Shown piece by piece: positions 4,246 to 20,965 of a stretch of 23,372 nt of DNA (positions within the stretch are counted from its first letter, which is position 1; each line of letters opens with the position of its first letter). A model generated the notes under the pieces. That model was not told the origin of the DNA, made no database searches, and worked only from the letters and a program-made list of their open reading frames with translations. Made by a program: the position numbers and the translations under genes. The stretch lies in IMG/VR virus record IMGVR_UViG_3300031951_001230, positions 1 through 23,372 of that record; one strand, 5' to 3'. The DNA comes from a virus.

Positions 4246-5229
4246 TTACAAAATATCAGTTGATATAGAATCTTTATCAACTTCTAATTTATCGCCATTA
4301 GATTTTTTAAGTTTAAAAGTAACTTCTTTAGTGGGTTCATCACCACTTTGAGATGTAACAATAATTGTATATTCTACACCGACTTGAAAATCTCGTTCAT
4401 CCATCGACCCTTGACCATAAGATTCTAAAGCATAAGCAAAATCTTCAGAATTTACTTCACCTAAATTATCTGGAATAATAACAGATTGAGTTCCATCTTG
4501 TCCTCTATGATAATATTCTTCTTCATTAATCATTTGTCTAATAGTTTTATTTGATTCTGTAATAATTTTATCGATTAAATTAACCAAATCACTTTCTTTA
4601 ATTCTTACAACTTTTTTATTTTCATTTATTTCTTTAGAATCAGGTATAATAACAGCATATCTTCCACCCCATTCTGATGTTCTTGGTATATTTGGGTCTC
4701 CTGGGAAAGCGGATAATACAATATATTCATTAGGTATTGCAGTGCCTTTTTCATCTTTTTTTGGTCTAACGATTATTGTTAATTCATCTGTTCTAAATTG
4801 GTTTATTGGTGCTGTTGTTTTAATTGCTGGTACTTTTATTTTATTAGGACCTTCAATTTTCTCAACTTCAGTTTCTTGAGCATTAGGTAATTTTTTAGCA
4901 TCTTCTATTGGTAGTACCAAATTGTAACCAATATTTGGTACTTTAATATTTACTGTTCCAGTTGTATTAGCAATTTTATCAATATCATTTCTTTTATTTA
5001 ATGTGTCTTGAACTATATTTAAAACATCATCAATAGATTTAGCAAAAATAGAACCTTGACCAACTTTACCATGTACATCCTCTAATTTATCTTTTAATGA
5101 CCAACCGCTAACATCTTTTGTTGGTATTGTAACGCCTTCAGTAATTTTTCTTTTTCTAGTAGTTTCTGTGATAATTTTATCGATTAAATTAACCAATTCA
5201 CTTTCTTTAATTCTTACAACTTTTTTCAT
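4246..5229 (-). CDS. Two-module hypothetical protein (apparent in-frame fusion of repeat-module genes)
   Basis: A 327-residue protein with start ATG 5227-5229; the open frame extends 38 codons upstream through the terminator and leader, which are unlikely to be translated. Residues 1-33 are the shared module (with KRKITEGV in place of KQKITEGV). Residues about 205-226 contain a second copy (KKVVRIKESDLVNLIDKIIT) in which the initiating ATG is replaced by an Asn codon, followed by IRQMINEEEYYHRGQ. Between them lies a domain with NEYIVLSAFPGDPNIPRTSE, WGGRYAVIIPD; after the second copy comes a probable beta domain (VGVEYTIIVTSQ ... KEVTFKLKK). It looks like two former genes joined by loss of the stop, terminator and start. 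If IITE sites are cut in the prohead, the product would be a two-part polyprotein. No family recognised. Confidence 0.65.
   Translation of the reverse strand: MKKVVRIKESELVNLIDKIITETTRKRKITEGVTIPTKDVSGWSLKDKLEDVHGKVGQGSIFAKSIDDVLNIVQDTLNKRNDIDKIANTTGTVNIKVPNIGYNLVLPIEDAKKLPNAQETEVEKIEGPNKIKVPAIKTTAPINQFRTDELTIIVRPKKDEKGTAIPNEYIVLSAFPGDPNIPRTSEWGGRYAVIIPDSKEINENKKVVRIKESDLVNLIDKIITESNKTIRQMINEEEYYHRGQDGTQSVIIPDNLGEVNSEDFAYALESYGQGSMDERDFQVGVEYTIIVTSQSGDEPTKEVTFKLKKSNGDKLEVDKDSISTDIL
4555..4617 (-). repeat. Internal, coding-only copy of the module repeat
   Basis: Closely matches the coding part of copies 1-3 (ttctgtaataattttatcg... through ...cttacaactttttt) but lacks the leader and the start codon. 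It encodes residues about 205-226 of the 327-aa protein. Confidence 0.85.
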
Positions 5230-5281
5230 ATCTTTTTTATGTTTTATAATAAATACATTAAGAAAAAAAAAAACCACAAAT
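5135..5281 (-). repeat. Leader/N-terminal module repeat, copy 3
   Basis: Very similar to copies 1 and 2, with a handful of substitutions confined mostly to the downstream 40 bases; the leader and the A-run of eleven are unchanged. Confidence 0.9.
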
Positions 5282-5296
5282 ATTTGTGGTTTTTTG
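5263..5296 (-). terminator. Intrinsic terminator after nrdA C-half
   Basis: Stem ccacaa/ttgtgg with an A-tract on one side and a T-tract on the other, placed 22 bases beyond the NrdA-C stop (5318-5320). It should end the nrdA transcript while its distal half is part of the leader of the next gene. Confidence 0.78.
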
Positions 5297-5317: not shown

Positions 5318-6412
5318 TTAACTTGAACAACCAAAACATTCAAATTGACTGTCGGTTGGTTTTTTGGTAACGGTTATTTGTGTTGAAGCTAATTTTGTAT
5401 TAGTGTCAAGCTTTGATTTTGTTCTAGTATAATAAACACCAGTTTTTAATCCACCTTTCCAAGCATACATTAATGCACTGGCAATTTTACCATATTTAGC
5501 ATCAGAATGATAAACATTTAATGACTGTGATTGGTCAACATATTTGTTTCTAATTATAGCTAAATCTAATAAAACTCTTTGTGGTATTTCCCATACATCT
5601 TTATACCTATACCTAACCTCTTCAGGTATTTCAGTAATGTTCTGTATACTTCCCTTATTCTTAATAACCTTATCAATCATTTCAACATCCCAAAGATTAT
5701 TTTCAAGCAATTCATTAACAAGATATTTGTTGATAACCAAAAACTCACCTTGACCAACACGCCTTGTAAATAAATTTGATGTTACAGGTTCAAATGATTC
5801 AAAAACACCTAATAAAATCGCACTGGTAGCTGTAGGCATTAATCCTAATAACAAACTGTTATACAATGGTATTGGTTCTCCATTTGGTTTTGGTGACCAT
5901 CCTTCAATATATGTTTCACCCTTTGAATATAAACTACCTTCCCAAGCTGGATAATTAACACCAAGTTCTTCAGCAATTGTCATTGATTCAATAATTGCTG
6001 ATTTATACATTGTTTCAAATATCTTATGTGTCCATTCTTTAGCTTCTTCACTTTCAAAAGATATTTTTTTCTTTGCAAAGAAATCAGCTAAACCAGCTAC
6101 ACCAATTGCTAATGCTCTTTGTTCTAAACCAGCAGATTCGCTCCATTCATCACTCCATTTATTTTTATTTATAACCTCATTTAATCCTCTAACCAATATC
6201 TTTGTTGATGTTTCTATTGTATCAATATCATCATGTTCAGATAAATTAATTGATGCTAATGTGCATTGAGATGTTTTTCTTGGTGAGCTGGCCTGGAAAA
6301 TTTCTGCACAGTTGTGGATAAGTATTCCATTTGCAAAAAAATTATTATTACCATCTATCGTTAAATCATATACTGGTAATGTTGTCTCGATTTTTCTTAT
6401 TTTAATCCCCAT
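5318..6412 (-). CDS. nrdA: Ribonucleotide reductase large subunit, C-terminal half preceded by split-intein C fragment
   Basis: A 364-residue product. Residues 1-34 are an intein C fragment (VYDLTIDGNNNFFANGILIHN, blocks F and G, with penultimate His and terminal Asn). Cys35 is the +1 nucleophile and starts the NrdA C-extein CAEIFQASSPRKTSQCTLAS. By alignment to E. coli NrdA, Cys35 corresponds to the thiyl-radical Cys439, the E of CAE to Glu441, and Cys50 to redox Cys462. Further on are the radical-transfer Tyr pair (VYY, about 327-328) and the C-terminal reducing Cys pair (ECFGCSS). Trans-splicing with the product of 7511-8992 would give an intact enzyme of about 717 residues that makes dNDPs with NrdB (12721-13674). 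The start ATG 6410-6412 is one base after the endonuclease stop, which suggests translational coupling. Confidence 0.93.
   Translation of the reverse strand: MGIKIRKIETTLPVYDLTIDGNNNFFANGILIHNCAEIFQASSPRKTSQCTLASINLSEHDDIDTIETSTKILVRGLNEVINKNKWSDEWSESAGLEQRALAIGVAGLADFFAKKKISFESEEAKEWTHKIFETMYKSAIIESMTIAEELGVNYPAWEGSLYSKGETYIEGWSPKPNGEPIPLYNSLLLGLMPTATSAILLGVFESFEPVTSNLFTRRVGQGEFLVINKYLVNELLENNLWDVEMIDKVIKNKGSIQNITEIPEEVRYRYKDVWEIPQRVLLDLAIIRNKYVDQSQSLNVYHSDAKYGKIASALMYAWKGGLKTGVYYTRTKSKLDTNTKLASTQITVTKKPTDSQFECFGCSS
6311..6412 (-). other. Split-intein C fragment (IntC, 34 residues)
   Basis: Encodes residues 1-34 of the C-half, ending GILIHN directly before the Cys codon at 6308-6310. The length and motifs resemble IntC pieces of natural split inteins such as DnaE (about 35 residues). 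The canonical Asn and the His before it are intact, so splicing competence is expected. Confidence 0.9.
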
Positions 6413-6413
6413 A

Positions 6414-7451
6414 TTATTTTATTATTTCATTTATGTTTGTTAATACTTTTTTTAGGTATACGTATCTTATTTTATTTTCATTACAATATTTTTTAGCGGC
6501 ATTAATTTTCATTTCTTCATTTAATTTTCCTTTTACACCCCTAATAAACCCTTTAATCTCTAATAATATTTTTTCACCATTATATTCGATTAAAAAATCT
6601 GGTAAGTATAACGTACCGTTTTCCTTTTCAATATAAAAAGGTTCATAACTATATATTATATTATTTAGTTCTAAAAATTCTATTGTTTTAAATTCCCAAG
6701 AACTTCTATACCTTATTATACTTTTATTTAAACAATTCTTTACTTTAATAAAACCAGTTTTAAAGAATTTTGTTGACCCCATATTTTCATTCCTATTCAT
6801 GCTAATAGTTGATATTATTGACATCATTTTTGTGTGTATAGTATTTATATTTTCATCACATATATTAATATCATTAATTTCATTCTTAAAGTTTAAAAAT
6901 ATCGTTTCATTTAAATATTTATTAGATTTTAAAAAATTTTTAACCTTTTTTATCTTATATTGTTTTGATTTTCTTAAATCTGAAATTGTTAATCCATATA
7001 ATTTATTTATTTCATCTTCCGTTTTTAATGTTGTATCTATGTTTTTATTATTTAAAAATTTTATTTTAAAATTAATACTAGAGTTTTGAATTTTTTTTGT
7101 TTCTCTAAACGAATCGCCTCTATTAATACCCTTCATTTTTATTTTCATCTTTTCAGAATGTTCTGGTCTTAATTTACCTTTACTATGATAACCCTTAAAA
7201 AAATTAACGCAGTCATCAGGCCATGCAAATCTACCGTTCTTCCATATTTTTAATATGTTGTTATTTGAGTAACAATTCTTAAAATTATCAAATGTTAATA
7301 CGTTATTTAAATATAAGTTTTTCAAAGCTTTGTGTTTTTGATATACATCTTTTATTATTTTATCAATATATTTAATTAATTCTGAATCAAATAACGTTAT
7401 AAAATCTTTGTTATTAATTAATTCATTTATTTTTGTGTGTTTTTTTATCAT
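6414..7451 (-). CDS. Free-standing homing-endonuclease-like protein (NUMOD3 plus PD-(D/E)XK/Vsr-like nuclease)
   Basis: A 345-residue protein encoded between the two nrdA halves. Residues 87-115 (GYHSKGKLRPEHSEKMKIKM, then KGINRG) match the NUMOD3 DNA-binding motif typical of phage homing endonucleases. The C-terminal domain has YRSSWEFKTIEFLE (Glu253), YLPDFLIEYNG (Asp285) and ILLEIKG (Glu298, Lys300), a PD-(D/E)XK arrangement; the 'RSSWE...PDF' signature also occurs in Vsr-like nucleases of T4-type phages. Homing endonucleases between split-intein gene halves are known ('fractured genes' described from phage metagenomes). The likely role is to cleave intein-less nrdA and so spread the cassette. 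The start ATG 7449-7451 immediately follows a 23-bp hairpin, and the protein is Lys/Asn/Ile-rich compared with NrdA. Which nuclease subfamily it belongs to is uncertain. Confidence 0.83.
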   Translation of the reverse strand: MIKKHTKINELINNKDFITLFDSELIKYIDKIIKDVYQKHKALKNLYLNNVLTFDNFKNCYSNNNILKIWKNGRFAWPDDCVNFFKGYHSKGKLRPEHSEKMKIKMKGINRGDSFRETKKIQNSSINFKIKFLNNKNIDTTLKTEDEINKLYGLTISDLRKSKQYKIKKVKNFLKSNKYLNETIFLNFKNEINDINICDENINTIHTKMMSIISTISMNRNENMGSTKFFKTGFIKVKNCLNKSIIRYRSSWEFKTIEFLELNNIIYSYEPFYIEKENGTLYLPDFLIEYNGEKILLEIKGFIRGVKGKLNEEMKINAAKKYCNENKIRYVYLKKVLTNINEIIK

Positions 7452-7503
7452 ATAAATTGGTCTTTTTAATAAATATTTTAATTTATTAAAAAGACCAATT
7501 TAT
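7452..7503 (-). promoter_or_regulatory. Perfect 23-bp RNA hairpin abutting the endonuclease start codon
   Basis: Arms 7452-7474 and 7481-7503 are perfectly complementary with a 6-base loop (7475-7480). The stem ends at the base directly before the ATG (7449-7451) and would occupy the whole ribosome-binding region. There is no U-tract on either side, so it is not an intrinsic terminator. The likely roles are translational repression of the endonuclease when transcribed from upstream, as described for T4 intron endonucleases, or an RNase III-type processing site between the nrdA halves. Confidence 0.8.
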
Positions 7504-7510
7504 GTTTAGG

Positions 7511-8992
7511 TTATTGTAATATTTTTAACATATCGTTTTCAATTAAGTCTTTAGCCATAACATACCCTCTATTAATTGTATATATTTTATGTTCTGGTGT
7601 GCATATTAGTTTTTTATTTGTTTTATCATCTATTATTTCTAAAACTTCTGCATCTTTACTAGTCATAGCTGATGCTAATAGCTGTTTGTATTCTATAATA
7701 TCGTTTTCAATATTATAAGATTTAACTAATATATTCTTATTGACTTTAAATAATTCATTTAATGTTTTGATATCAACCTTATGTTCTTCATTATCTAAAA
7801 TTATGTCTATTATTGAATCTTCAGATATGCATAGATTACTCATTTTAATTGGACCAATATTTGATTGCATATTTCTTTTGTTAGCGTTGTCTTTATACAT
7901 AACATAAGGTCTGCCACTCTCAACTTGAGATTTAATAATAGAGTCAAATATTTCTTTAGGATTTACTTTCTTACCTATACCTAGATTAACAGCTTTTTCA
8001 TACTCTTCATTAAATTCAGTACCATATAAATCATATAATGGTCTTAATCCAGCTTTTTTAATATCATTAGGACAAAATAAATACCAATCACCACCAGTTT
8101 CTAATCTCTCCATAAACAAATCATTTATTACAACAGCTGTAAATAAATCACGTGTTCTTAATTGTTCATCCCCAATTGGTAATGTTAATTCTAAGAAATC
8201 AATAATATCTTTATGCCAAACAGATAAATATAAAGCGCAACTACCAGAACGAGAACCTTGTTTATAAAATCTCATTTTTGATTGTACCATGTCAGCAAAT
8301 CTAACAATACCACCAGCATTACCTTGAAAAGATTCTACAACACTTTCTTTGCTTCTTAATGGGTCAACCAATAACCCAATACCAGAACCTTCTTTAGATG
8401 CTGCTGATATCATCGTTAATGTGTTTTCTATTTCTTGAAAGCTATCCCCTTCTAAATGTGTTAAGTTACAAGAAATCATACCACCTCGTTTATCAATACC
8501 AGCATTGGTATAAATTGGTGTGGCAAAATTAATTCTTTTTAAATTAAGCTCATTTATTAAATTATTTCTTAACTCTTCATTATCACCATGTAAATGATTT
8601 GCAACCCTTTCATACATACATGATGGTAATTCAATAGGGTTTTTATTAGAATCTCTTTTAGAATATTTAGTTAAAAAAGTTGTTGCAGCAAAAAAATCAT
8701 ATGTTAAATCAACTGGTTTTAATTCTTTACCAATTAATTTAGATTGTCTACTTAATAAAATCCTACCACCAAGTAATGAATAATCTGGGTGTTGTATTAT
8801 CTTGTCAGCCGCTTTAAACGCTATTATCTCGTCAATCTCAGTTGTTGTTATGTTATCCGTTATCAATGGTATAACCTCTTGAAATAATGAATCAGAATCA
8901 ATTTTTAATCCATTTGATTGACCTTTTATTCTACTTAGAATCTTATTTGGCATAAATGCCTGTGTCGTTTTATCTCTCTTTAATATTCTCAT
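7511..8992 (-). CDS. nrdA: Ribonucleotide reductase large subunit, N-terminal half followed by split-intein N fragment
   Basis: A 493-residue product. Residues about 1-85 form an ATP-cone-like start (MRILKRDKTTQAFMPNKILS), followed by the N-terminal part of the class I RNR barrel with GGMISCNLTH (Cys175, counterpart of redox Cys225), SKEGSGIGLLVDPLRS and QGSRSGSCALYLSVWH. The extein ends ...KMSNL at residue 387; Asn386 corresponds to catalytic Asn437. Residues 388-493 are an intein N fragment starting with Cys388 (CISEDSIIDI, block A) and containing block B (CTPEHKIYTINRGY, TxxH). It ends at a genuine TAA, so the active site is only completed by protein trans-splicing with the product of 5318-6412. 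The start ATG 8990-8992 lies just downstream of a TTTG-N20-TAAATTTG promoter candidate. Confidence 0.93.
   Translation of the reverse strand: MRILKRDKTTQAFMPNKILSRIKGQSNGLKIDSDSLFQEVIPLITDNITTTEIDEIIAFKAADKIIQHPDYSLLGGRILLSRQSKLIGKELKPVDLTYDFFAATTFLTKYSKRDSNKNPIELPSCMYERVANHLHGDNEELRNNLINELNLKRINFATPIYTNAGIDKRGGMISCNLTHLEGDSFQEIENTLTMISAASKEGSGIGLLVDPLRSKESVVESFQGNAGGIVRFADMVQSKMRFYKQGSRSGSCALYLSVWHKDIIDFLELTLPIGDEQLRTRDLFTAVVINDLFMERLETGGDWYLFCPNDIKKAGLRPLYDLYGTEFNEEYEKAVNLGIGKKVNPKEIFDSIIKSQVESGRPYVMYKDNANKRNMQSNIGPIKMSNLCISEDSIIDIILDNEEHKVDIKTLNELFKVNKNILVKSYNIENDIIEYKQLLASAMTSKDAEVLEIIDDKTNKKLICTPEHKIYTINRGYVMAKDLIENDMLKILQ
7514..7831 (-). other. Split-intein N fragment (IntN, 106 residues)
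   Basis: Begins at the Cys codon 7829-7831 and runs to the codon before the stop. It has Hint blocks A and B, and with IntC totals about 140 residues, the size of an endonuclease-less mini-intein split at the usual loop. No endonuclease domain is inside; that gene is separate. Confidence 0.9.
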
Positions 8993-8999
8993 ATAATTA

Positions 9000-9031
9000 C
9001 AAATTTACTACTTTTTTTTAAATATAACAAA
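9000..9031 (-). promoter_or_regulatory. Bacteroidota-type promoter candidate for nrdA
   Basis: On the minus strand: TTTG (9028-9031), 20-base spacer, TAAATTTG (9000-9007), matching the Bacteroidota sigma-A consensus TTTG-N19-21-TAnnTTTG. The expected start site falls within a few bases of the ATG at 8992, so the message would be almost leaderless. The same arrangement with N20 precedes gp32. AT-richness makes chance matches possible. Confidence 0.42.
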
Positions 9032-9166
9032 GAAACAAATAACAAATAAAATATAAAAAAAAAATTATTATTTATAAAAAATCAATACTTTTTTTCTTTT
9101 AACATATTTATTATTAACAATAACAAAAATAAAAAAATAACAATTAACTAAAAAAAATAAATTACT

Positions 9167-9655
9167 ATGGCCGATTTACTCATGAAAATGCCACTACCTT
9201 ATGAACCTAAAAGAAAAAATAGGTGGCTTATTACTTTTCCAGCAGATTTAGGTATTCAACAATGGTGGTTGTCTTCAGCTTCAAGACCATCAATAACACA
9301 AAATGAAACTGAAATAGCATTTTTAAATACCTCAACTTGGGTTGTGGGTCGTTTTAATTGGGAAGCTATTGATGTTACTTTCCGTGACCCTATCGGACCT
9401 TCAGCTTCTCAAGCTATTATGGAATGGGTTCGTTTACACTCAGAATCAATTACTGGTAGACAAGGTTATGCAGTTGGTTATAAAAGACCTGTAGAATTGG
9501 AAATGCTTGACCCTACTGGTGTTGTGGTTGAAAAATGGTTACTTGATGGTACTATGTTAACTAACGTTAATTTTGGTGACCTTTCTTTTGAAGATGATGG
9601 TATTGCTGAAATTACAGCAACTTTAAGATTTGATAGAGCAATACTCCTTTTTTGA
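9167..9655 (+). CDS. 19: Tail tube protein, gp19-like
   Basis: A 162-residue protein, practically the length of T4 gp19 (163). Family pattern: a short N-terminal region with PYEPKRKNRWLITFPADLGI, then beta strands including FNWEAIDVTFRDPIGPSASQ, a helix AIMEWVRLHSESITGRQGYA, and the C-terminal beta-hairpin LSFEDDGIAEITATLRFDRA. gp19-type subunits stack as hexameric rings to form the DNA conduit inside the sheath. It is the only convincing plus-strand gene here, standing alone between nrdA and the accessory operon, with its own upstream AT-rich region (8993-9166) and a strong terminator at 9692. Start ATG 9167 follows an A-rich leader without an AGGAGG-type site. A CATATTTATTAT stretch at 9103-9115 resembles the leader element of the minus-strand structural genes. 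Confidence 0.87.
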   Translation: MADLLMKMPLPYEPKRKNRWLITFPADLGIQQWWLSSASRPSITQNETEIAFLNTSTWVVGRFNWEAIDVTFRDPIGPSASQAIMEWVRLHSESITGRQGYAVGYKRPVELEMLDPTGVVVEKWLLDGTMLTNVNFGDLSFEDDGIAEITATLRFDRAILLF

Positions 9656-9691
9656 TTTTTTGATTATCAACTACTTACGTATTTTTTTAAT

Positions 9692-9722
9692 AAAAACTCT
9701 TTCAAACGAAAGAGTTTTTTTA
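9692..9722 (+). terminator. Intrinsic terminator after the tail tube gene
   Basis: A 12-bp perfect stem (aaaaactctttc / gaaagagttttt) with an AAAC loop, followed by a T-run on the plus strand. It starts 37 bases beyond the gp19 stop. The A-run on the other side would also allow termination of minus-strand transcripts. Confidence 0.85.
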
Positions 9723-9741
9723 TTTTAATATAATTAAGTGT

Positions 9742-9825
9742 ATGTCAGAATCAGAAATTATGTTATCTAGAGGTATAAATAAGATATATGATTGTGGTAC
9801 TGTTAAATGGGTAATTAATTACTAA
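9742..9825 (+). CDS. Possible 27-aa ORF or gene remnant
   Basis: ATG 9742 to TAA 9823-9825 encodes MSESEIMLSRGINKIYDCGTVKWVINY (27 residues). It lies directly after the gp19 terminator and its stop overlaps the 3' end of the convergent gene at 9815. The IYDCGTVKW segment looks like real protein rather than random translation, so it may be the left-over of a longer gene. There is no ribosome site and no homologue I can name; it may equally be chance. Confidence 0.25.
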   Translation: MSESEIMLSRGINKIYDCGTVKWVINY

Positions 9826-10708
9826 ACGTGTCAAAAATTTTTCTATGGAACTCATCGTAGGTTAAATCTGGTGATATTGTTACAATAGGGTTAATTTTTA
9901 TTTCTAAATTTATTGGTAGTTCTTTATTTAATATTTTTGCTGCCATATATCTATGATGACCATCTTCTATATAAAACCCTGGTTTTTTATTTTTAATTTT
10001 TAAAAATGAGACATCAATTGGTTCTGATAAGTTTATTTTTTTAGCCCATTCTTTTGGTGATAAACCGCTTTTTTCTATTTCATATACAACATTTTCCAAA
10101 TCGGCTAACCATTTTAATTTTAATTCTTTTGGTTTTAAGGTTTTAATATCTTCTTCAGAAAAACCATGTGCTAATCTATCTAATAGTTCTATTGATAAAC
10201 CACCACTTCTAAGTAATTGTTCTGATGTTTCATATTTTGATAATTCTTTTTTTAAATCATTAATGTATAAATCATTTTTAAATTTAAAAACATCATTATA
10301 TAATGTGTTTTCAGTTATTAGTTCGTCAAAAATAACATCCCATTTGGTTAGAGGTATCCACCCATATTTTGTTTTTATTTCTAATTTATTTACTGGGATA
10401 TTTTCAAATGTTATATATTCATCACCTTTATTATTTTTTATTCTGTTAGACAATTCAAAATCATCAGTTAAAATTGTTCTTAATATTACCATTCTATCTT
10501 TACCACCTTTAGACATGGCATAATATTTTGCATAATCAATATCGTTTGTGAAGCTAATTGAAGGTTTTATTTCACCAACATTATTTGTTTTAATATAACC
10601 ATCTTTTTTTATATTGTTTGCAGCACCTTTACTAGTCCCATGATAAAGATAAATCTGTTCATTATTATTGGTAATTTCCCTTAATAGTTTTCTTATTAGT
10701 TGTTTCAT
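9815..10708 (-). CDS. PARP-like (H-Y-E) ADP-ribosyltransferase-fold protein with C-terminal ParB-like domain
   Basis: A 297-residue protein. Residues 1-12 (MKQLIRKLLREI) match the N-termini of two neighbouring genes. Residues about 19-115 show an ADP-ribosyltransferase pattern of the H-Y-E class: YLYHGTS (His23), SISFTNDIDYAKYYA (Tyr62/63) and GDEYITFENIP (Glu97). The C-terminal portion has FLKIKNKKPGFYIEDGHHRY (residues 235-254) followed by MAAKIL, the 'DGHHRy.Aa' signature of ParB/sulfiredoxin-like domains. ADP-ribosylation of a host target is the natural inference for the first domain, as with T4 Alt/ModA; the ParB-like part may bind or cut DNA or act as an NTPase. This is the last gene of a four-gene operon (12654 to 9815). 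No motif proves activity. Confidence 0.62.
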   Translation of the reverse strand: MKQLIRKLLREITNNNEQIYLYHGTSKGAANNIKKDGYIKTNNVGEIKPSISFTNDIDYAKYYAMSKGGKDRMVILRTILTDDFELSNRIKNNKGDEYITFENIPVNKLEIKTKYGWIPLTKWDVIFDELITENTLYNDVFKFKNDLYINDLKKELSKYETSEQLLRSGGLSIELLDRLAHGFSEEDIKTLKPKELKLKWLADLENVVYEIEKSGLSPKEWAKKINLSEPIDVSFLKIKNKKPGFYIEDGHHRYMAAKILNKELPINLEIKINPIVTISPDLTYDEFHRKIFDTFSN

Positions 10709-10723
10709 TTATCTTTTTTTTTA

Positions 10724-11233
10724 TTAAAATAAATCAATATAATATTTTTGGGTGAATTCTTCTATTTTAAATAGGGTTCTGTTCATATCATTTATTATTC
10801 TATCTAATTCGTTTTTTGGTATTTCTTCATTATTTTTTACCATTATTTCTTTATTATAAGATAGGGTTTCATTTAAACCTTTCATCGCAATAATAAAAAC
10901 TCTAAATGTTAAATCATCCATTTCTTTTGGTTGCATTGTATGAAATTGATTTTTTATAATAAATTTATGAAACGTATTATCATTTATTTTATGTGGGTAA
11001 TAAATGATTTCAGATGAGATGTTTAACTGTGGGAATTTTATTATTTCATCACCCATCATCATTGTTACGTTTTCATTATAAACTACTCTTTGTGCTTCTA
11101 ATCTTTTTTCGTCTCTAGGGTGTTTAAATATATTATATTCTTTAAGAAAAGGGATTCTTTTAATTAATATATCTTTAATATTATTGTTTGATTCTAAGTT
11201 TTCTCTTAGTAATTTTTTAATTAATTTTTTCAT
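10724..11233 (-). CDS. Hypothetical protein with MKKLIKKLLREN-type N-terminus
   Basis: A 169-residue protein. The start ATG 11231-11233 is preferred over an in-frame TTG at 11252-11254, because the N-terminus then aligns with MKNLIKKILREN of the upstream neighbour and MKQLIRKLLREI of the downstream one, and because the TTG would overlap the previous gene. The remainder is charged and mixed alpha/beta (RIPFLKEYNIFKHPRDEKRL ... FHKFIIKNQFHTMQPKEMDD), with a helical C-terminus. No family recognised. Five bases separate the upstream stop codon from this ATG, so the genes are probably translated together. Possibly a packaged accessory protein, by the shared N-terminus. Confidence 0.62.
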   Translation of the reverse strand: MKKLIKKLLRENLESNNNIKDILIKRIPFLKEYNIFKHPRDEKRLEAQRVVYNENVTMMMGDEIIKFPQLNISSEIIYYPHKINDNTFHKFIIKNQFHTMQPKEMDDLTFRVFIIAMKGLNETLSYNKEIMVKNNEEIPKNELDRIINDMNRTLFKIEEFTQKYYIDLF

Positions 11234-11237
11234 GTTA

Positions 11238-11813
11238 TTAATGGTCTCCGACAATAGCGTTAATTGGTTTTTTTAATTCTTCACCATTTATTTTAATTAT
11301 TTTCACATTAGTACCTTTATTTAGCGCACATTCCCATTGGTCTTCACCATACCAAATAAATGAATGAAACCCATAAATCCAATCTATATCTTTTGGGTTA
11401 ATAATAGCTTCTAATATATAAGGTTCACCCGTTTTCATCATTTTTATATTTGGGTGTCGCTCTCCGTATGCCCCAACGCCATTTTCATCAAATGACCAAT
11501 GCTTACCTATATCTTTTATATCTAAATCTTTTATAGAATTTAATTTAATTAATCTATAAATTGTTATTTTATTACTGTTTTTTAATTCATTATATTTATC
11601 AACATATAGTTCTATTCTTTCTATATAATTATCTCTAGAGTATTCTGCTTGTATATCATTTTTATCTTCTTCATACGCATCAAAAGATTCAGCAACGTCT
11701 TCTATATTTTCATAAGCGTATTTTGTCGCTGTTTCGTAGTTAGATAAAAATGAATCATATTCATTATATTCATTTAAATTTTCTCTTAATATTTTTTTAA
11801 TTAAATTTTTCAC
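11238..11813 (-). CDS. Putative ADP-ribosyltransferase-like protein (R-S-E pattern)
   Basis: A 191-residue protein starting at GTG 11811-11813, one base after the upstream TAA (11815-11817). Residues 1-12 are the shared basic helix MKNLIKKILREN. A helical acidic region (about 15-80) is followed by a C-terminal domain with ITIYRLIKL (Arg87), IGKHWSFDENG (Trp106-Ser107) and YGEDQWECAL (Gln159, Glu161), with YILEAIINPKDIDW between. This order, Arg on strand 1, a W-S/T-F motif, and Q/E-x-E near the end, matches R-S-E type ADP-ribosyltransferases. The assignment rests on motif order only. If right, the operon holds two different ADP-ribosyltransferase-fold proteins. Confidence 0.55.
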   Translation of the reverse strand: MKNLIKKILRENLNEYNEYDSFLSNYETATKYAYENIEDVAESFDAYEEDKNDIQAEYSRDNYIERIELYVDKYNELKNSNKITIYRLIKLNSIKDLDIKDIGKHWSFDENGVGAYGERHPNIKMMKTGEPYILEAIINPKDIDWIYGFHSFIWYGEDQWECALNKGTNVKIIKINGEELKKPINAIVGDH

Positions 11814-11814
11814 G

Positions 11815-12654
11815 TTACTTTTCTTTACTCATTTTATATAAATTAATTTTTTCTGATGTTCCAATAAGATTGCCGCTATCATCATAGTTAGAAATAGTTT
11901 GATAGGTATATTTAACATATTCTGAACCTTCTTTAATTAAATTTGTACAATATTTATATAATGTATTAGACTGTGTGTCATTAGTTTCTTTAATAATTTC
12001 TTCAGCTGCTCTTAACCCACCATTAGCTAAGTTTATACTAGCCTCACCAAATGTTTTAATGTCTTCTGGGTTAACAACACCATGTGACTCTCTTAATCTT
12101 ATTAAATATATTATTGCTTTAGTTACCATGTTAGTATCTCTTAAATGTTCTGACCCTCTTTCTTTCATATCCATTATAAAACCTATGGCAATATTTATAT
12201 GCATTTCACTTATTGGTTGATTAGTTGTACTAGCGTATGCTAATGAAGCTGAAATAATTAAAAAAACCATAACTAATATAGTTAAGTTAATAAGTTTAAA
12301 TACTACAGGGTATTTTTCTCTAAAAGATAGAACTGTTTTTGATACCCAATTAATAAAAGTTTTTAATTTTTCTAATATTTTTAATCCTATTTTAGATGCG
12401 TTTAACAAAAAAGTGTTTAACACTTCTATTATCTTTTGGTTTATTTTTTCAGATATATTTGAAAATATATTTTCATTAATTGTTAAATTTAATTCTTTAA
12501 TATATTCTTTTTCACTTATTTTATTTTCAATAAAATTTTTTGTTAATTTATGTTCTATTAAGAATTCTTTATTAAACTCAATTTTAGTGTGATTTTGTTG
12601 TTCTTCTAATAAGTTCTTAAACTTATTCATAAACATTCTCATTTCTTTGCTCAT
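11815..12654 (-). CDS. Hypothetical single-pass membrane protein
   Basis: A 279-residue protein, start ATG 12652-12654 (a later Met, giving MNKFKNLLEEQQ, is an alternative start that resembles the basic (L/I)-x-E N-termini of its neighbours). Residues about 40-115 are amphipathic, probably coiled-coil. Residues 118-141 (VFKLINLTILVMVFLIISAS and on) form one strong transmembrane helix. The C-terminal half is helical (NIAIGFIMDMKERGSEHLRD ... EASINLANGGLRAAEEIIKE). No known family is recognised. It is the first gene of the accessory operon, after the nrdB terminator and a TATTTATA leader element. Confidence 0.6.
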   Translation of the reverse strand: MSKEMRMFMNKFKNLLEEQQNHTKIEFNKEFLIEHKLTKNFIENKISEKEYIKELNLTINENIFSNISEKINQKIIEVLNTFLLNASKIGLKILEKLKTFINWVSKTVLSFREKYPVVFKLINLTILVMVFLIISASLAYASTTNQPISEMHINIAIGFIMDMKERGSEHLRDTNMVTKAIIYLIRLRESHGVVNPEDIKTFGEASINLANGGLRAAEEIIKETNDTQSNTLYKYCTNLIKEGSEYVKYTYQTISNYDDSGNLIGTSEKINLYKMSKEK

Positions 12655-12670
12655 AATATATTAATTTTTA

Positions 12671-12683
12671 TATAAATATATTA
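12671..12683 (-). promoter_or_regulatory. AT-rich leader element upstream of the accessory operon
   Basis: The third exact copy of plus-strand tataaatata (12671-12680), 17 bases before the start at 12654 and right after the nrdB terminator. A promoter role is inferred from its position after a terminator. Confidence 0.33.
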
Positions 12684-12687
12684 ACAA

Positions 12688-12716
12688 TAAAAAAACCCAC
12701 TTTAAAGTGGGTTTAT
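12688..12716 (-). terminator. Intrinsic terminator after nrdB
   Basis: A palindrome aaacccacttt/aaagtgggttt (12693-12714) with a U-run on the minus-strand transcript given by the plus-strand a's at 12689-12695. It starts five bases beyond the nrdB stop. Confidence 0.85.
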
Positions 12717-12720
12717 ATTT

Positions 12721-13674
12721 TTAGAATTCTTCATCAAAAATACCATCCATTGTTTTTGGTATTTCAATTCTTGTGTATTCACCTTCTCTTTTTTCAAAGA
12801 AATTATTTTTTGTTGATAGACCTATTCTTGACATAAAATCAAGTGGATTTGAGACCATAAATTCTCTTTCGCAACCAAAGTCATTTAAAACGATATCTGT
12901 AACATATTGTATATATTTTAACATATCATTTTTTGTCAGACCTTGAAGACCATCTGGCATACTTTCTTCAACAAATGTTTTTTCTACATCATAGCAACCA
13001 AGAATTATATTTCTAATTTCTGTTTTATTTAGCTTATATTCTTCTTTTAGATAGTTTTTATATAAGTTTAATGCGAACTCGTAATGAAATGTTTCATCTC
13101 TTAATATAAGTTCATTCATAGCTGCTAAACCTTGCATTTTATTTCTACTTCTAAACCAGAACACACCAGAGAACACACTAGCAAATGAAATACCTTCAAC
13201 ACAAGCAAAAGCTAATAATCTATGTGGAAATGATGGGTGTTGTATCCATTTTTCAGCCCATTCAGCTTTTTTAAATACAGCTTTGTTTGTTTCCATCGCA
13301 TTAAATAAATCTTCTTTTTCTTGTAGATTTTTTATGTAGGTATCGATTAATAATGAATAACCATTTGCATGAACTTGTTCAATAAATGTTTGGTGTCCAT
13401 AAAAATATTGTGCCTCTAACAATTCAACTTCATTTAAAAAGTTTGTTGCTAAGTTATCAATAACGAGACCATCAGATACAGCAAAGAAAGCTAAGATGTT
13501 TTTAAGATATGTTTTTTCATTATCTTTTAGTTCATCGAATTTATCTTTACTCAAATCAGTTTCTTCAGCAACCCATGTTTGGGATTCTGCTTTTTTATAC
13601 ATTTGCCATAAATCATTGTGTATGATTGGGAAAATGGAATATCTTTTTTTAATTGTTGAATCTTTCAGGTACAT
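12721..13674 (-). CDS. nrdB: Ribonucleotide reductase small subunit
   Basis: A 317-residue protein. The di-metal ligands are visible at family spacing: Asp68 (FFAVSDGLV), Glu99 and His102 (FIEQVHANGYSLL), Glu160 (CVEGISF), Glu194 and His197 (RDETFHYEF). Tyr106 sits four residues after His102, as does the radical Tyr122 in E. coli NrdB, so this is a tyrosyl-radical class I enzyme. The acidic C-terminal tail (DGIFDEEF) would dock onto NrdA. It works with the split-intein NrdA encoded 3.7 kb downstream. The gene follows gp41 with only 6 bases between stop and start and ends at a strong terminator, so it probably shares a transcript with the replication genes. Confidence 0.95.
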   Translation of the reverse strand: MYLKDSTIKKRYSIFPIIHNDLWQMYKKAESQTWVAEETDLSKDKFDELKDNEKTYLKNILAFFAVSDGLVIDNLATNFLNEVELLEAQYFYGHQTFIEQVHANGYSLLIDTYIKNLQEKEDLFNAMETNKAVFKKAEWAEKWIQHPSFPHRLLAFACVEGISFASVFSGVFWFRSRNKMQGLAAMNELILRDETFHYEFALNLYKNYLKEEYKLNKTEIRNIILGCYDVEKTFVEESMPDGLQGLTKNDMLKYIQYVTDIVLNDFGCEREFMVSNPLDFMSRIGLSTKNNFFEKREGEYTRIEIPKTMDGIFDEEF

Positions 13675-13680
13675 ATGTTT

Positions 13681-15090
13681 TTAATTTTCTTCTGTTGTTA
13701 TGTTTAATAAATTCTTTCTATTATTAAATATCTCGGCAACTCTTTGTTGGTTCTCTTTTTGTGTATTATTTTTTATTTCTGTTCTTGTTACACCAAAAGT
13801 AGTATTATCCATAGATACTGCTATTCTTGAGTTATCGAATTCAACATCTTCAAATACCATTCCATCTTTACCAAATCTTGATTTAAGGATTGTTATTGTT
13901 GCTTTATGTGTTTCTCTTTGTGGTAATGATTTACCTACAGACATTATAAAGTGAGCTACTTGACCTTTTTTGATTGACCCACCCATTTTATCTGCTTCAA
14001 CAATCTCTGAATTTAAGCTTTGTCTATTCCCTTGAACAGCTGTCCAACCTGCCATATCAAAATCAGATAATATCGTCTCAAATTGTCTCATTACAGCACC
14101 TTCACTTGTAAAGACATCTGTATATTCCTTTGAAGGGCTAACGCAGTCTATATAGTCTAATAATACGATATCTGGTCTAAAACCTTCTGATATTTTCTTT
14201 TCAATGTGTTTTCTAATCATTGGCATTGTTATACCATCGCTAGGAAGTTTTAACAAAACCAATCTACCACCATTTTTTTTCATTTCTTCAGTTTTATTGA
14301 AGACTTCTTCTTTATGGTTATGTAGTTCATTTAATTCAATACCAGTCCAACATGCCAAATGTTTTCTCTGAATTATTTTTGTTTTATCTTCAAAAAATAT
14401 TTGTAATACCTTATAACCATCATTATATGCTGTGTTAGCCATTTTGGTGATTAGAGTTGTTTTTCCGACCCCAAATGGGGCCAATATAAGCCCCAATTCA
14501 CCTTTTGATAGTCCACCATTCATTATCTCATCAAGCTTCGTTATACCTGTTCTAATTGGCTTTCTGAAGTCATCTGATAAAGCTTCTGTTATATTATGTA
14601 GAATATCTACACCATCATTTTCTGTATTACCATAACTTATAGCTGTTTTAAGAATTTCTAGACACTCATCATACTTTTCATGTTGATGTTTTGAGATTAT
14701 CTTTTGTATTTGCTGTACGGCTTTATTAATTTCTTGTTGTTTAAAAAACTTTTTAGAAACATCTTGAATATAAAGCGCATCATGCACAACCAATTCTTTA
14801 ATTTTGGCTATGGTTTTAATTAGATAATTTTTCTTTAATTCTTTTAAATCTAATTCAGCTGCTCTTATTAATAAGCTATCAAAATCTGGTACAACATTAT
14901 AATCTTTTTTACTTTGTTTTATTAAAGAGATTATTAATTTACTTTCATCGTTACTAAAATAATTTGGGTTAACAATATCTATAATGTTATTACCAAACTT
15001 TTGGTCTACGATTATTTGATTAATAAGTTTCTCTTCATATTTAACACCTAAGTAATCTAAAGTTGCTTCTTTATTTATACTATCATTCAT
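13681..15090 (-). CDS. 41: Replicative DNA helicase, gp41/DnaB-like
   Basis: A 469-residue protein (T4 gp41: 475). The N-terminal helical domain (about 1-160) is followed by the RecA-type motor: GITKLDEIMNGGLSKGELGL, Walker A APFGVGKTT (204-212), a catalytic-type FFEDKT, Walker B PDIVLLDYID (Asp312), and the H4-like AVQGNRQSLN (351-360). It forms the hexameric ring that unwinds DNA 5'-3' at the phage fork, with gp32 and UvsX from the same cluster. It has no intein, unlike some phage gp41 genes. Twenty-seven bases separate it from the upstream gene; a TAATATTTATA stretch before its ATG resembles the leader element seen elsewhere. Confidence 0.93.
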   Translation of the reverse strand: MNDSINKEATLDYLGVKYEEKLINQIIVDQKFGNNIIDIVNPNYFSNDESKLIISLIKQSKKDYNVVPDFDSLLIRAAELDLKELKKNYLIKTIAKIKELVVHDALYIQDVSKKFFKQQEINKAVQQIQKIISKHQHEKYDECLEILKTAISYGNTENDGVDILHNITEALSDDFRKPIRTGITKLDEIMNGGLSKGELGLILAPFGVGKTTLITKMANTAYNDGYKVLQIFFEDKTKIIQRKHLACWTGIELNELHNHKEEVFNKTEEMKKNGGRLVLLKLPSDGITMPMIRKHIEKKISEGFRPDIVLLDYIDCVSPSKEYTDVFTSEGAVMRQFETILSDFDMAGWTAVQGNRQSLNSEIVEADKMGGSIKKGQVAHFIMSVGKSLPQRETHKATITILKSRFGKDGMVFEDVEFDNSRIAVSMDNTTFGVTRTEIKNNTQKENQQRVAEIFNNRKNLLNITTEEN

Positions 15091-15117
15091 TTATATTTAA
15101 ATTATTTGTTATAAATA

Positions 15118-15609
15118 TTAAATGCTAATATTAAGATACGTCTTGGTATAGTTTTTTTTGCTTAGTTTACTTCTAATCTCAGAGATAATATCTGGGATGA
15201 TTTCTTTAATATCAACAGCGTATCTAAATTTTTGGTGGAATGATGTTCCAGAAAAAATAGATTTAGCAACTGTTTTTCTATCTATTTTAATTTCAAAACT
15301 GAAATTATCTTCTTTATCTGAAGGTTGTTTAACAGCCTGTTCAGATTGATTCATAAAATAATGAGAGTTGGCCAACATAAATTCGATTGTTTTATTCTTA
15401 AGATATGTTGGGATAATACCCATACTCCCATATTGACCATTATTCATACCACAAATATTATCCATTAATTCTTTAATCTCATAAGACTTTACTGAATTAG
15501 GATTAAAGTTATTTATTGGAAAATAACGTTGACAAATAATGTTGTCATTGATGTAGAGTACGAACTCAAATCTTTCTTGTTCAATTTTTTTTGCTTCTTC
15601 TTTTTTCAT
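15118..15609 (-). CDS. Hypothetical protein in the replication cluster
   Basis: A 163-residue protein between the FEN-like nuclease and gp41. It starts MKKEEAKKIEQERFEFVLYI, with a probable beta strand pair (RFEFVLYINDNIICQRYFPI), then a helix around YEIKELMDNICGMNNGQYGS, a polar linker at about 90-105, and a second strand-rich section (NFSFEIKIDRKTVAKSIFSG, then FRYAVDIKEIIPDIISEIRS). No recognised domain; it is not a size or motif match to T4 gp59. The location suggests a replication or repair role. Twenty bases separate its ATG from the upstream stop. Confidence 0.6.
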   Translation of the reverse strand: MKKEEAKKIEQERFEFVLYINDNIICQRYFPINNFNPNSVKSYEIKELMDNICGMNNGQYGSMGIIPTYLKNKTIEFMLANSHYFMNQSEQAVKQPSDKEDNFSFEIKIDRKTVAKSIFSGTSFHQKFRYAVDIKEIIPDIISEIRSKLSKKNYTKTYLNISI

Positions 15610-15628
15610 TTTATTTATTTATTTAAAT

Positions 15629-16681
15629 TTAATTCATATTACAATCACGATTCGCTAATTTTTTAAATGGTATTAGAAAATCGTCATATCTTGATGCACC
15701 CATTGCTTTATCTAATCCATCTCTTTTCATCAAACCCAATATTGTTTTAAGTGAAAAATCAGTATAATCAAAGTTACCGTTTATTAGTTCATTTAATTCA
15801 TCCATGGCTTTTTCAGTAATCATAGGTTTTTTTAAATTAACCAATCTTTCATTTATCTCGTAAATGTTTTCTTTTTGAACCCCATCAGTAACTTTATTTA
15901 TTATATTATTTAATACTTTAAGTGGTTTTTTCTTTTCAGATAAACGTTGGTTTTGTCTAGCGTTAGCCAATTCAATTACTTCATCAATAGTTAATTTTCT
16001 TTCATTCAACTCAGGGATTAATTTTAATAATGTTTTTTCACGCAATCCTTTAATACCTTTTATCGTATCACTATTATCTCCAAGTATTGTTTTCAATAAC
16101 ATTGCGTTTTCTTGTATATAACAAAAATACGAAGAATAATTACTAATTTCAACATATTGTCTTAAATCAAGAAAATAAATTTTTATATCATTGGAAATCA
16201 GCTGTAAAAAATCTCTGTCTGTTGATGCTATGGTGATAGTTTCATTTTCTTTTTTGTTTAGACAATAATAACCTATAAAATCATCACTTTCTACGATTTC
16301 ATCTGTTAATTGTCTAACGTTTAATGCATTTAGATAATCCCATATCTTTTTTCTTTGTTCTAGTTCAGCTAAGTCTATTGGGTGTGTACCATTTTCATAG
16401 TCTTTACCTCTAGAACTTTTGTATGGTTTATATATTTCATATCTTAACTTACCGCTAAGTTTACCGTCCCAAAAAACAAATACTTTATGGTATAAATCTT
16501 CATTCAATAATTTTCTCATAATAACTAAAAATGAGTATAACCCACCGATGTGTTCACCGTTTGTGTTATACTCATTCTTAGCACCAAGATATGAGAATTT
16601 AAATAAAGCATTACCATCTATAAGTAATGTATTTGTTTTTTTTATTTTATTTTCTCCGTTTTTTGGTGGTCTTCTATTCAC
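15629..16681 (-). CDS. rnh: 5'-3' exonuclease / flap endonuclease (T4 RNase H-like)
   Basis: A 350-residue protein (T4 RNase H: 305). FEN/PIN motifs appear in order: TLLIDGNALFKFSYLG (Asp22), KVFVFWDGKLSGKLR (Asp72), IVESDDFIGYY (Glu131, Asp133, Asp134), ITIASTDRDFLQLIS (Asp155, Asp157) and the helix-three-turn-helix ILGDNSDTIKGIKGLREKTL (Asp202, Asp205). These give the acidic two-metal centre. It removes RNA primers and flaps during Okazaki-fragment maturation. The start ATG 16679-16681 lies just after the uvsX stop (16684-16686). The basic Pro/Asn start MNRRPPKNGENKIKK may be an extension; no other start fits better. Confidence 0.88.
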   Translation of the reverse strand: MNRRPPKNGENKIKKTNTLLIDGNALFKFSYLGAKNEYNTNGEHIGGLYSFLVIMRKLLNEDLYHKVFVFWDGKLSGKLRYEIYKPYKSSRGKDYENGTHPIDLAELEQRKKIWDYLNALNVRQLTDEIVESDDFIGYYCLNKKENETITIASTDRDFLQLISNDIKIYFLDLRQYVEISNYSSYFCYIQENAMLLKTILGDNSDTIKGIKGLREKTLLKLIPELNERKLTIDEVIELANARQNQRLSEKKKPLKVLNNIINKVTDGVQKENIYEINERLVNLKKPMITEKAMDELNELINGNFDYTDFSLKTILGLMKRDGLDKAMGASRYDDFLIPFKKLANRDCNMN

Positions 16682-16683
16682 AA

Positions 16684-17778
16684 TTACGCTTTGAAATCGT
16701 TATCGCTTAAATTACTTTCTTCTTTTTCGATGATAAAGTCATCATATTCAGTATTTAAACGGGTTTTAATATACTCTTTATGAATTTCTTTATATTCGTT
16801 TAATCTATCTGGGTTCCAATAACCATGTGGTGTTGATGCTAATCTACCTTTTTGCTCAATACCGTTAACTTGGTTTTTTTCACATCTAATTTTAGTTTCA
16901 ACACCAAACTGATATTCTTCACCATTTAGTGTTGCTTTTAATTTTTCTGTTGAATGTGTTAAAATACCGCCAAAATGGAAAATTAATCTTGGGGAATAGA
17001 AAAACGCTTCACCGCCTTTATGTTTAATGACTTTATTTTCATTATCTAACCATATTTGTTGAACTACAGCAAATGTAGCAGTATACTCTGAAGTTTCACG
17101 TCTTGTTGATGGTATTCTATAGTTAATTAAACTTTTAAAAGAATTAGCTAACGCACCTGCTGTCCACTGATTATTGCTTGTTTTTGATGTTGCAGATTTA
17201 AAACAATTAACGCTACCAACAGAATCCCATAAGAAACAAACATTTTTTTGTAAGCTACCATTTTTTTGTGCATCCAATATAGAATGCATATGTAAAGCAA
17301 TATCTTCAACAACTGGTTCATCTCTTAATGGTTTTGTACCCATTTTACTATGTTGGTGGTCGTAATTTGCGTACATAGTTACTAAATCATAACCAGAAAT
17401 GTAAATAAAATCACCAACATATTTTTCTTTATTTGTTTCTTCATCATAAACAATACTATAATCAATACCAATATTTCTAGCGTGTTCCCAATTAAAATTA
17501 GTTTCTGTATCATATATAATCGGTAAAATACCTAATTTTTGACAGCCAACTATCGTTTCAATTATAGCTGTTGATTTACCAGTGTTTGAATATCCTCTAA
17601 ATGATGTGAAATACCCAATAGGGATACCTGGAACTTTAACAGCTTCATGAAATGCTTCAGACATTGGAATCCATGCTAATTCTTTTTCTTTTACATTAAA
17701 ATCAAGACCCATTTGTTTTTTAAATGCTTCTAAATCAAATTCTTTTTTTTCAATTTCTTTTTGTGGTTTTTTTGCCAT
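16684..17778 (-). CDS. uvsX: RecA-like recombinase UvsX
   Basis: A 364-residue protein (T4 UvsX: 391). Walker A GYSNTGKST at 62-70, Walker B VCFLWDSVGSV (180-190), a RecA-like core with GIDYSIVYDEETNKEKYVGD and ALANSFKSLINYRIPSTRRE (DNA-binding loop region), and a flexible acidic C-terminus (EEKEE-like, SNLSDNDFKA). It catalyses strand exchange on gp32-coated ssDNA, driving recombination-dependent replication. Its neighbours, gp32 upstream and the FEN nuclease downstream, fit. The start codon is followed by a Lys/Glu-rich helix, and the leader has a weak AGATAT ribosome site. A terminator (17816-17850) separates it from gp32. Confidence 0.93.
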   Translation of the reverse strand: MAKKPQKEIEKKEFDLEAFKKQMGLDFNVKEKELAWIPMSEAFHEAVKVPGIPIGYFTSFRGYSNTGKSTAIIETIVGCQKLGILPIIYDTETNFNWEHARNIGIDYSIVYDEETNKEKYVGDFIYISGYDLVTMYANYDHQHSKMGTKPLRDEPVVEDIALHMHSILDAQKNGSLQKNVCFLWDSVGSVNCFKSATSKTSNNQWTAGALANSFKSLINYRIPSTRRETSEYTATFAVVQQIWLDNENKVIKHKGGEAFFYSPRLIFHFGGILTHSTEKLKATLNGEEYQFGVETKIRCEKNQVNGIEQKGRLASTPHGYWNPDRLNEYKEIHKEYIKTRLNTEYDDFIIEKEESNLSDNDFKA

Positions 17779-17815
17779 ATATCTATTTTTATTTATTTAC
17801 TTTATTTATTTTTTT

Positions 17816-17850
17816 AATAAAAAGGGATAGTTTTAACTACCCCTTTTTAT
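17816..17850 (-). terminator. Intrinsic terminator after gp32
   Basis: Stem aaaaagggatag / ctaccccttttt with a TTTTAA loop. One plus-strand A-C mismatch becomes a U-G pair in minus-strand RNA, followed by a U-run. It lies between the gp32 stop (17871) and the uvsX start (17778), so gp32 can be made in excess while partial readthrough feeds uvsX. Confidence 0.8.
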
Positions 17851-17870
17851 TTTGTTAAACATTTTTTATA

Positions 17871-18788: not shown

Positions 18789-18833
18789 TTTTAATATATT
18801 TAAAATTTAACGTTATTTACTAACCTATATTTA

Positions 18834-18865
18834 CAAATATACTAAATTAAAACACGTTTATCAAG
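18834..18865 (-). promoter_or_regulatory. Bacteroidota-type promoter candidate for gp32
   Basis: On the minus strand: CTTG (18862-18865), 20-base spacer, TATATTTG (18834-18841), one base off the Bacteroidota consensus TTTG-N19-21-TAnnTTTG. The predicted leader before the gp32 ATG is about 40 bases. The spacing equals that upstream of nrdA, and the surrounding TTAGTATATTTGTA resembles GTAGTAAATTTGTA there. Confidence 0.5.
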
Positions 18866-18882
18866 TATTTTAAATATTTTTT

Positions 18883-19611: not shown

Positions 19612-19612
19612 A

Positions 19613-19807: not shown

Positions 19808-19834
19808 AATATAAATTTATTATACTAATAAATA

Positions 19835-20464: not shown

Positions 20465-20468
20465 ACTA

Positions 20469-20476: not shown

Positions 20477-20485
20477 CTATTTTTA

Positions 20486-20959: not shown

Positions 20960-20965
20960 AAAATT

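Follow-up and report, generated by a model that had tools for sequence, protein, structure and literature searches.

A fractured phage nrdA gene with split intein halves and a candidate late-timed endonuclease module between them

Fractured genes are known from ocean data, and one report cites seven nrdA and two nrdJ cases (PMC3653736). NrdJ-1 is an active split intein that requires Ser at position +1 (PMC13123727), and the NrdA of phage ICP1 contains an intein with a LAGLIDADG nuclease (PMC10448857). Another line of work concerns the timing of phage homing endonucleases. In I-TevI, I-TevII, I-TevIII and segB of phage T4 and in mobE of phage Aeh1, a hairpin covers the start region in read-through RNA, and a late promoter is placed such that late RNA lacks this hairpin (PMC2988022). 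Here we analyse a ribonucleotide reductase (RNR) gene, nrdA, that is fractured on the minus strand (8992-5318) into two pieces flanking a third gene. The stretch analysed is one whole virus record of 23,372 bases (IMG/VR record IMGVR_UViG_3300031951_001230; hereafter the window).

We estimate a probability of about 0.77 that this locus holds a mobile cassette that is trans-spliced, homes and is timed to late expression, and that consists, in order, of the N-terminal intein half (IntN), a hairpin with a late-type promoter, a PD-(D/E)XK nuclease and the C-terminal intein half (IntC). The cassette would interrupt the phage nrdA immediately ahead of the thiyl-radical cysteine. NrdA-N-IntN and IntC-NrdA-C would be made as separate proteins, the intein halves would associate and, as the anatomy suggests, class-1 splicing (Cys1, the catalytic Cys as Cys+1, terminal Asn) would yield a normal 717-aa NrdA. 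The nuclease would presumably cut intein-less nrdA alleles, with repair copying the whole cassette in. In read-through RNA from nrdA, the computed hairpin would hide the nuclease start codon. The 5' arm would be missing from an RNA begun at the late-type promoter within the hairpin, and the start codon would then be open, so that, with the predicted promoter use and timing, the nuclease would be made late.

Three minus-strand open frames of 493, 345 and 364 aa make up the locus (Table 1), and the RNR barrel domain of Pfam is divided over the two outer products (profile positions 2-213 and 212-523). In an alignment with the human enzyme, the break maps between S-N-L and C, where the Cys is residue 429 of 3hnc. 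We take this residue to be the thiyl-radical cysteine of NrdA; since the break lies directly before it, the +1 splicing nucleophile is NrdA's own catalytic cysteine. From about 7036 to 23372, the window is 100% identical in two other assemblies. The split arrangement is not due to chance. An earlier note on this DNA, made from the letters alone, had described NrdA-N with IntN (blocks A and B, Cys1), a free-standing endonuclease gene, and IntC with a Cys-starting NrdA-C, in intact frames with the catalytic residues shared out between two products. All of this was borne out by the frames and residues found, as were its counts of 106 + 34 intein residues and 717 joined residues (387 + 330). The note had also asked for joined exteins without gap or duplication at the junction relative to intact NrdA; neither was found, since in 61 related viral loci with an unbroken gene (near-copies included) residue 387 of the N-extein directly adjoins residue 1 of the C-extein, and all read Cys-Ile-Glu. 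Its placing of the locus among fractured nrdA genes of a known kind agrees with the literature (PMC3653736). The note makes no mention of the sister intein shifted by one codon, of the family to which the nuclease belongs, or of the late-type motif within the hairpin, all described below.

The Intein_splicing profile of Pfam is also divided (positions 1-93 and 125-155), both halves scoring under the Pfam cut-off. With NCBIfam, intein_Cterm was above its cut-off (35.9 versus 15.6) and intein_Nterm slightly below (22.1 versus 24.5). The usual splicing residues (PMC4031507) are Cys1, T-x-x-H in block B, Asp in block F, HN, and Cys, Ser or Thr at +1; the window has Cys1, TPEH in block B, VYD with the block F Asp, and HN followed by Cys. 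IntN matched NrdJ-1 (PDB 8ubs) with E=2.3e-14 and, judged by sequence, is a relative of it. Between the window and two related loci, L004 and L008, the ratio of non-synonymous to synonymous substitution rates (dN/dS) was 0.10-0.16 for the exteins and 0.11-0.13 for IntN, and for the nuclease it was 0.19-0.33, or 0.19-0.35 when all three loci were compared with one another; these ratios are rough, since dS was at least 1, near saturation, in most comparisons. The nrdA halves are thus most likely joined by protein trans-splicing.

By its catalytic motif, the inner gene is a PD-(D/E)XK-like endonuclease, and profile and fold matches point the same way more weakly. The catalytic motif E...PD...(D/E)xK (E253, PD285, E298-x-K300) is invariant in seven aligned sequences including the window. 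The Pfam match to TnsA-like nucleases fell below the cut-off (E=1.2e-4), and in the relative L121 Phage_endo_I was above it. An AlphaFold model from the seven sequences reached a mean confidence (pLDDT) of 80.9, after an earlier poor model at 58.6. Its Foldseek list against the PDB is coherent, with TnsA, Bax1, Hjc and XisH, which we take to be PD-(D/E)XK nucleases, but none of these matches has E<=0.001. Of viral models, 26 matched it with E<=0.001 (best 2.2e-6), some of them models of endonuclease I, TnsA-like and NUMOD3 proteins. Phage records gave eight weak matches confined to the nuclease domain, and none of 595 candidate stretches from bacterial genomes was confirmed as a relative.

The distribution of the cassette is that of a mobile element. 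L-numbered loci come from a search of viral contigs with the C-terminal protein (the best 80 of 110 kept) and from later scans, including an IntN profile scan (the best 80 of 219); with only these best loci kept, the survey covers a part of the matches and is biased to close relatives. The window-type split intein with the PD-(D/E)XK-like nuclease (class A) also occurs in L004, L005 (partial) and L008, and related cassettes are present in L118-L121. A sister split intein (class B: L006 in part, L007, L009, L010, L073, L089-L091 and others) is inserted one codon later, after the catalytic Cys and with a Cys as +1, so its spliced product would read Cys-Cys-Glu, not Cys-Ile-Glu; its nuclease matches a GIY-YIG family and is unrelated to that of the window. 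In L011, the two halves of a class B intein are 16 nt apart, and a nuclease gene is absent. The closest pair with and without the cassette, L004 and the empty L034, differ by an exact insertion, with DNA identities of ~96% (left) and ~95% (right) over 2.4 kb per side. On an extein tree (52 distinct intact rows among 66, partial exteins and identical rows having been dropped), the class A labels need four changes for four rows and the class B labels seven for 10, and L011 (B), L004 (A, as row L116) and L034 (empty) group together. Such scattering of the cassette classes over the tree is the pattern of a mobile element. The nuclease gene between the halves is present and constrained, and the cassette is patchily distributed among related phages. 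Co-conversion near the L004 insertion was considered and dropped: the bases differing from L034 showed no consistent lean towards the other class A alleles. Identity immediately right of that junction is somewhat lower (218/240).

At least 65 non-identical split loci, the window being one, have an inner open reading frame (ORF) and >300 nt between the halves (IntN scan and other loci). Linked by blastp, their inner ORFs form one large group of 57 (GIY-YIG and HNH types), a PD-(D/E)XK group of seven and one other. Pfam, applied to 55 of them, gave GIY-YIG in 29, LEM-3-like GIY-YIG in nine, HNH in three, Phage_endo_I in two and TnsA-like in two. The window is therefore one of many split nrdA-type genes in this collection. 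Both intein halves without an inner ORF were seen in eight further loci (L011, L122, L133, L143, L148, L157, L163 and L171), which are possibly ready-made compact split inteins. Related intein halves lie in one ORF, in cis, in L172, L174, L181 and L188, so the family has both split and unsplit members. Separately, L016 (2580-5993) carries an in-frame intein-like insert of ~415 aa in NrdA directly before another Cys (GMIS, then C...HN, then CNLTHL), a second, cis, site within the same gene family.

The visible regulatory structure of which the earlier note had spoken proved to be a perfect 23-bp hairpin (7452-7503) that ends directly at the nuclease ATG. It has a computed stability of -25.2 kcal/mol, reached by 0 of 200 shuffles (z from -7.0 to -8.3). 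When inner ORFs at least 85% alike were merged into 33 groups, hairpins with z<=-3 stood at 21 inner-gene starts, versus nine of the 168 starts of other genes in these loci (p=2e-13); at z<=-2 the counts were 23/33 and 18/168. Counted by locus, z<=-2 was found at 43 of 65 inner starts, in none of 65 stretches taken from within the inner ORF, and at five of 65 IntC starts. This locus count uses uncorrected starts, five class B start codons lying inside the hairpin, and the 33-group counts use the later in-frame ATG. None of the eight split loci without an inner ORF had a hairpin at z<=-3, the stretch after IntN in L011 giving -2.8. The stem sequences differ strongly between lineages. The computed unpaired fraction of the start region was 0.27 in read-through RNA and 0.75 in an assumed late RNA, starting 6 nt after ATATTTAT and lacking the 5' arm.

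For the motif ATATTTAT, part of the hairpin, counts were taken over 152 kb of the 362-kb record of the L004 phage, excluding the nuclease locus. Of 88 upstream regions with a gap of at least 45, 42 had it on the coding strand and eight on the opposite strand; it also occurred in 12 of 1483 coding pieces. Among the 10 longest of the 36 proteins behind it, three match the tail sheath, baseplate hub and head-tail adaptor, and two match homing/HNH nucleases. The 10 longest of the 14 proteins behind GTATnTTTG, an early-type motif, include matches to a single-stranded DNA-binding protein (SSB), a nuclease, a protease, an RNA-binding and a DNA-binding protein, as well as three of unknown families and one without a match. 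Of the 24 genes in the window, eight have ATATTTAT in the 90 nt before them. It stands at -21 for two baseplate genes, at -25 for the nuclease and at -63 for the tail tube, and the others are three genes of unknown function and the helicase gene; the SSB gene has TATATTTG at -53. In classes A and B together, ATATTTAT preceded the inner gene in nine of 12 groups versus nrdA in 0 of 58 (p=3e-9); the inner genes of L007, L099 and L121 lack it, L121 having TATAAATA instead, and it was absent in the eight split loci without an inner gene. TAnnTTTG preceded nrdA in 30 of 58. We take TAnnTTTG and GTATnTTTG to resemble a Bacteroidota-type -7 box. By motif and position, ATATTTAT at the nuclease fits the late-type motif of this phage group and is a candidate late promoter. 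Two homing/HNH nuclease genes of the L004 phage (L213:3553-4641 and L217:7946-9118) have ATATTTAT 21-22 nt before their starts.

The T4 consensus TATAAATA was also tried as the late promoter of the window and rejected in favour of ATATTTAT. It is absent from the window hairpin and not enriched in the window (15 versus 10.7 expected; 16 of 100 shuffles gave at least as many). The L004 phage record as a whole has 156 occurrences, versus 187 for the reversed pattern, and the consensus stood in seven of 89 upstream regions of this phage versus 3.3 in shuffles. In the whole survey, eight of the 33 groups have TATAAATA, the T4 late motif, within 60 nt (at -28 to -35 in seven), versus four of 168 other gene starts.

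Several observations weigh against the proposed spliced, homing and late-timed cassette. Foldseek gave no nuclease match in the PDB with E<=0.001, and a co-conversion tract was not demonstrated between L004 and L034. Hairpins at z<=-2 are lacking in ten of the 33 groups, among them L118, whose nuclease is of the same family as that of the window, and covariation on the few available hairpins is weak, its score being reached by 97/500 and 24/500 shuffles. Nor does ATATTTAT mark late genes cleanly. Among the 10 longest ATATTTAT proteins, four have no PHROG match and one belongs to an unknown family; the remaining one of the 10 early-type proteins is a virion protein, and ATATTTAT lies at -28 before the replicative helicase gene of the window. 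For 31 nrdA genes close behind another ORF, the stretch before that ORF held neither motif. The T4-type late sigma family was absent from the L004 contig and matched in three of 14 records. Finally, the helper His of block F is replaced by Asn in the window; the position is His in L004, L008 and 28 of 52 distinct related IntC.

The last point would suit a decaying element in which splicing has become poor or lost and NrdA is dispensable, as would the eight split relatives without an inner gene. However, the His is also missing in the other 24 of the 52 related IntC, dN/dS is well below 1 in exteins, IntN and nuclease, and an nrdB-like open frame lies on the same contig, so that we give decay very little credence. 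It is likewise highly improbable that the locus is a gene in pieces without splicing, with NrdA fragments assembling non-covalently. A precedent is known for this gene, since nrdA of Aeromonas phage Aeh1 is interrupted by mobE and its product remains functional (PMC2988022, PMC3653736), but here both fragments bear constrained intein halves with the residues of blocks A, B and G, and without splicing they would retain 106 + 34 extra residues at the active-site break.

The regulatory elements allow two further readings. Instead of a translational switch, the hairpin between IntN and the nuclease might be an attenuator of transcription or a site of RNA processing. A terminator-type scan does flag the repeat, on the + strand only, and T4 mobE is described as having an internal weak terminator (PMC2988022). 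The stem has just three G-C pairs, however, with no U-run after it on the minus-strand RNA, and 43 of 47 stems of at least eight pairs (loci not dereplicated) end no more than 12 nt from the start codon of the inner gene, which makes attenuation or processing unlikely. In the other reading, ATATTTAT would be a translation-initiation signal and not a promoter, and 25 of its 43 occurrences in the L004 phage do lie at -20 to -27 from the start codon. The motif was nevertheless found in 0 of 46 regions before tightly packed genes, and 14 of the 43 lie further upstream (-31 to -116); a role in initiation is quite unlikely.

An extension of the late-timed cassette to fractured genes in general can be offered tentatively, at slightly less than even odds. 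Each cassette would then be a mobile unit of three parts, with a standard timing module (hairpin and embedded late promoter) on its inner nuclease gene. The module would be rewritten in the promoter type of each phage lineage, ATATTTAT for the Bacteroidota-type group and TATAAATA for others. It would come and go with the nuclease and would in part serve as an operator for autorepression. That the hairpin might act as an operator mimicking the homing site is only a lead. Hairpin DNA matches the uninterrupted junction at 15/16 positions in L140 and 13/14 in L123, and strongly also in L187-L190. A first look, covering all but four of the 33 groups, gave p<0.05 in seven of 29. Ranked against windows of the same exteins, the likeness gave a combined p=1.7e-5 (33 groups; rank test without L103 and L161), with the best match on the junction in four of 33; L008 gave p=0.51. 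The four groups and the two loci were left out because their junction was not placeable. I-TevI has an operator of such a kind (PMC2988022).

Table 1. Features of the split nrdA locus and its surroundings in the window
Feature	Position	Strand	Basis or remark
Open frame, 493 aa	7511..8992	(-)	
Open frame, 364 aa	5318..6412	(-)	
nrdA N-extein, 387 aa, ends ...KMSNL	7832..8992	(-)	frame, Pfam, alignment
IntN, 106 aa, Cys1 and block B TPEH	7514..7831	(-)	stop codon 7511-7513; Cys1 codon 7829-7831
Perfect 23-bp hairpin, 6-nt loop, ends directly at nuclease ATG	7452..7503	(-)	folding
ATATTTAT, late-type promoter motif of this phage group	7469..7476	(-)	-25 from nuclease ATG; in loop and 3' arm
PD-(D/E)XK-like endonuclease gene, separate frame, 345 aa	6414..7451	(-)	motif; weaker profile and fold matches
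IntC, 34 aa, own ATG, ends HN	6311..6412	(-)	frame, Pfam, NCBIfam
nrdA C-extein, 330 aa and stop, first residue the catalytic Cys (+1)	5318..6310	(-)	
TAAATTTG (TAnnTTTG)	9000..9007	(-)	-15 from nrdA start
Stretch resembling intein-less junction, possible operator	7485..7505	(+)	weak in window, rank p=0.064
Terminator-like inverted repeat, 3' of nrdA-C	5268..5295	(-)	
nrdB-like open frame	12721..13674		same contig as split nrdA

The same record encodes an NrdB-like protein, a DnaB-type helicase, a UvsX-like recombinase, SSB, baseplate wedge proteins and a tail tube. The ORF 3' of nrdA (4246-5226) contains two copies of a near-repeated motif, VVRIKES(E/D)LVNLIDKIITE. Both of the identical assemblies extend past the right end of the window and stop inside the nuclease gene at 7036-7039, no more than three bases apart, where the window reads through; a strain fork or an AT-rich break are candidate causes.

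In the literature searched, on split inteins together with late promoters or hairpins and homing endonucleases and on split inteins of phage RNR, no listing showed the combination described here, which does not prove absence; a search on Bacteroidetes phage late promoters returned nothing relevant. The fractured nrdA itself is of a known kind. What appears new is chiefly the hairpin/late-promoter module, together with the family of the nuclease and the sister class one codon away. If this reading is right, ATATTTAT can be proposed as a late promoter motif of a phage group that is uncultured. The loci are also a source of uncharacterised NrdJ-1-like split inteins, and nrdA comes in a natural series of alleles, some empty, some split around one or the other of two unrelated nucleases with insertion points one codon apart, and some split but free of a nuclease.

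The nuclease family of the fractured genes of 2009 is reportedly Vsr-like (EDxHD). In those genes (Dassa et al.), as in the window, two host-gene halves each carry an intein half with a nuclease gene between them, and nrdA is among the hosts. Compared with them, the window differs in its PD-(D/E)XK-like nuclease; the hairpin/late-promoter module and the one-codon-shifted sister described here may be further differences. NrdJ-1 has a homologous IntN and an RNR host, but Ser at +1, where the window has the catalytic cysteine; its insertion lies, we assume, one codon later than that of the window, like class B. Phage ICP1 shares an intein in phage NrdA, but there the nuclease is inside the intein and splicing is in cis. 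The Aeh1 NrdA is in pieces without a splicing element at the break, whereas the window carries intein halves there.

In its control elements the window resembles the T4 I-TevI, I-TevII, I-TevIII and segB and Aeh1 mobE genes: a hairpin lies at the start codon, and the candidate late promoter is placed such that late RNA, from a predicted start site, would drop the 5' arm. It differs in having no visible Shine-Dalgarno sequence and in using ATATTTAT, not TATAAATA, and its nuclease gene lies within a split intein, whereas those of T4 and Aeh1 are intron-borne or free-standing. The comparison links two fields, split inteins as protein-ligation tools and the timing control of phage homing endonucleases. 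If the proposed reading is true, a selfish gene in a split intein faces the same problem as the T4 intron nucleases, that of staying silent in the early message of its host gene, and solves it with the same timing logic in other promoter languages. The cassette of the window thus apparently places control in the style of T4 I-TevI and Aeh1 mobE inside a split intein.

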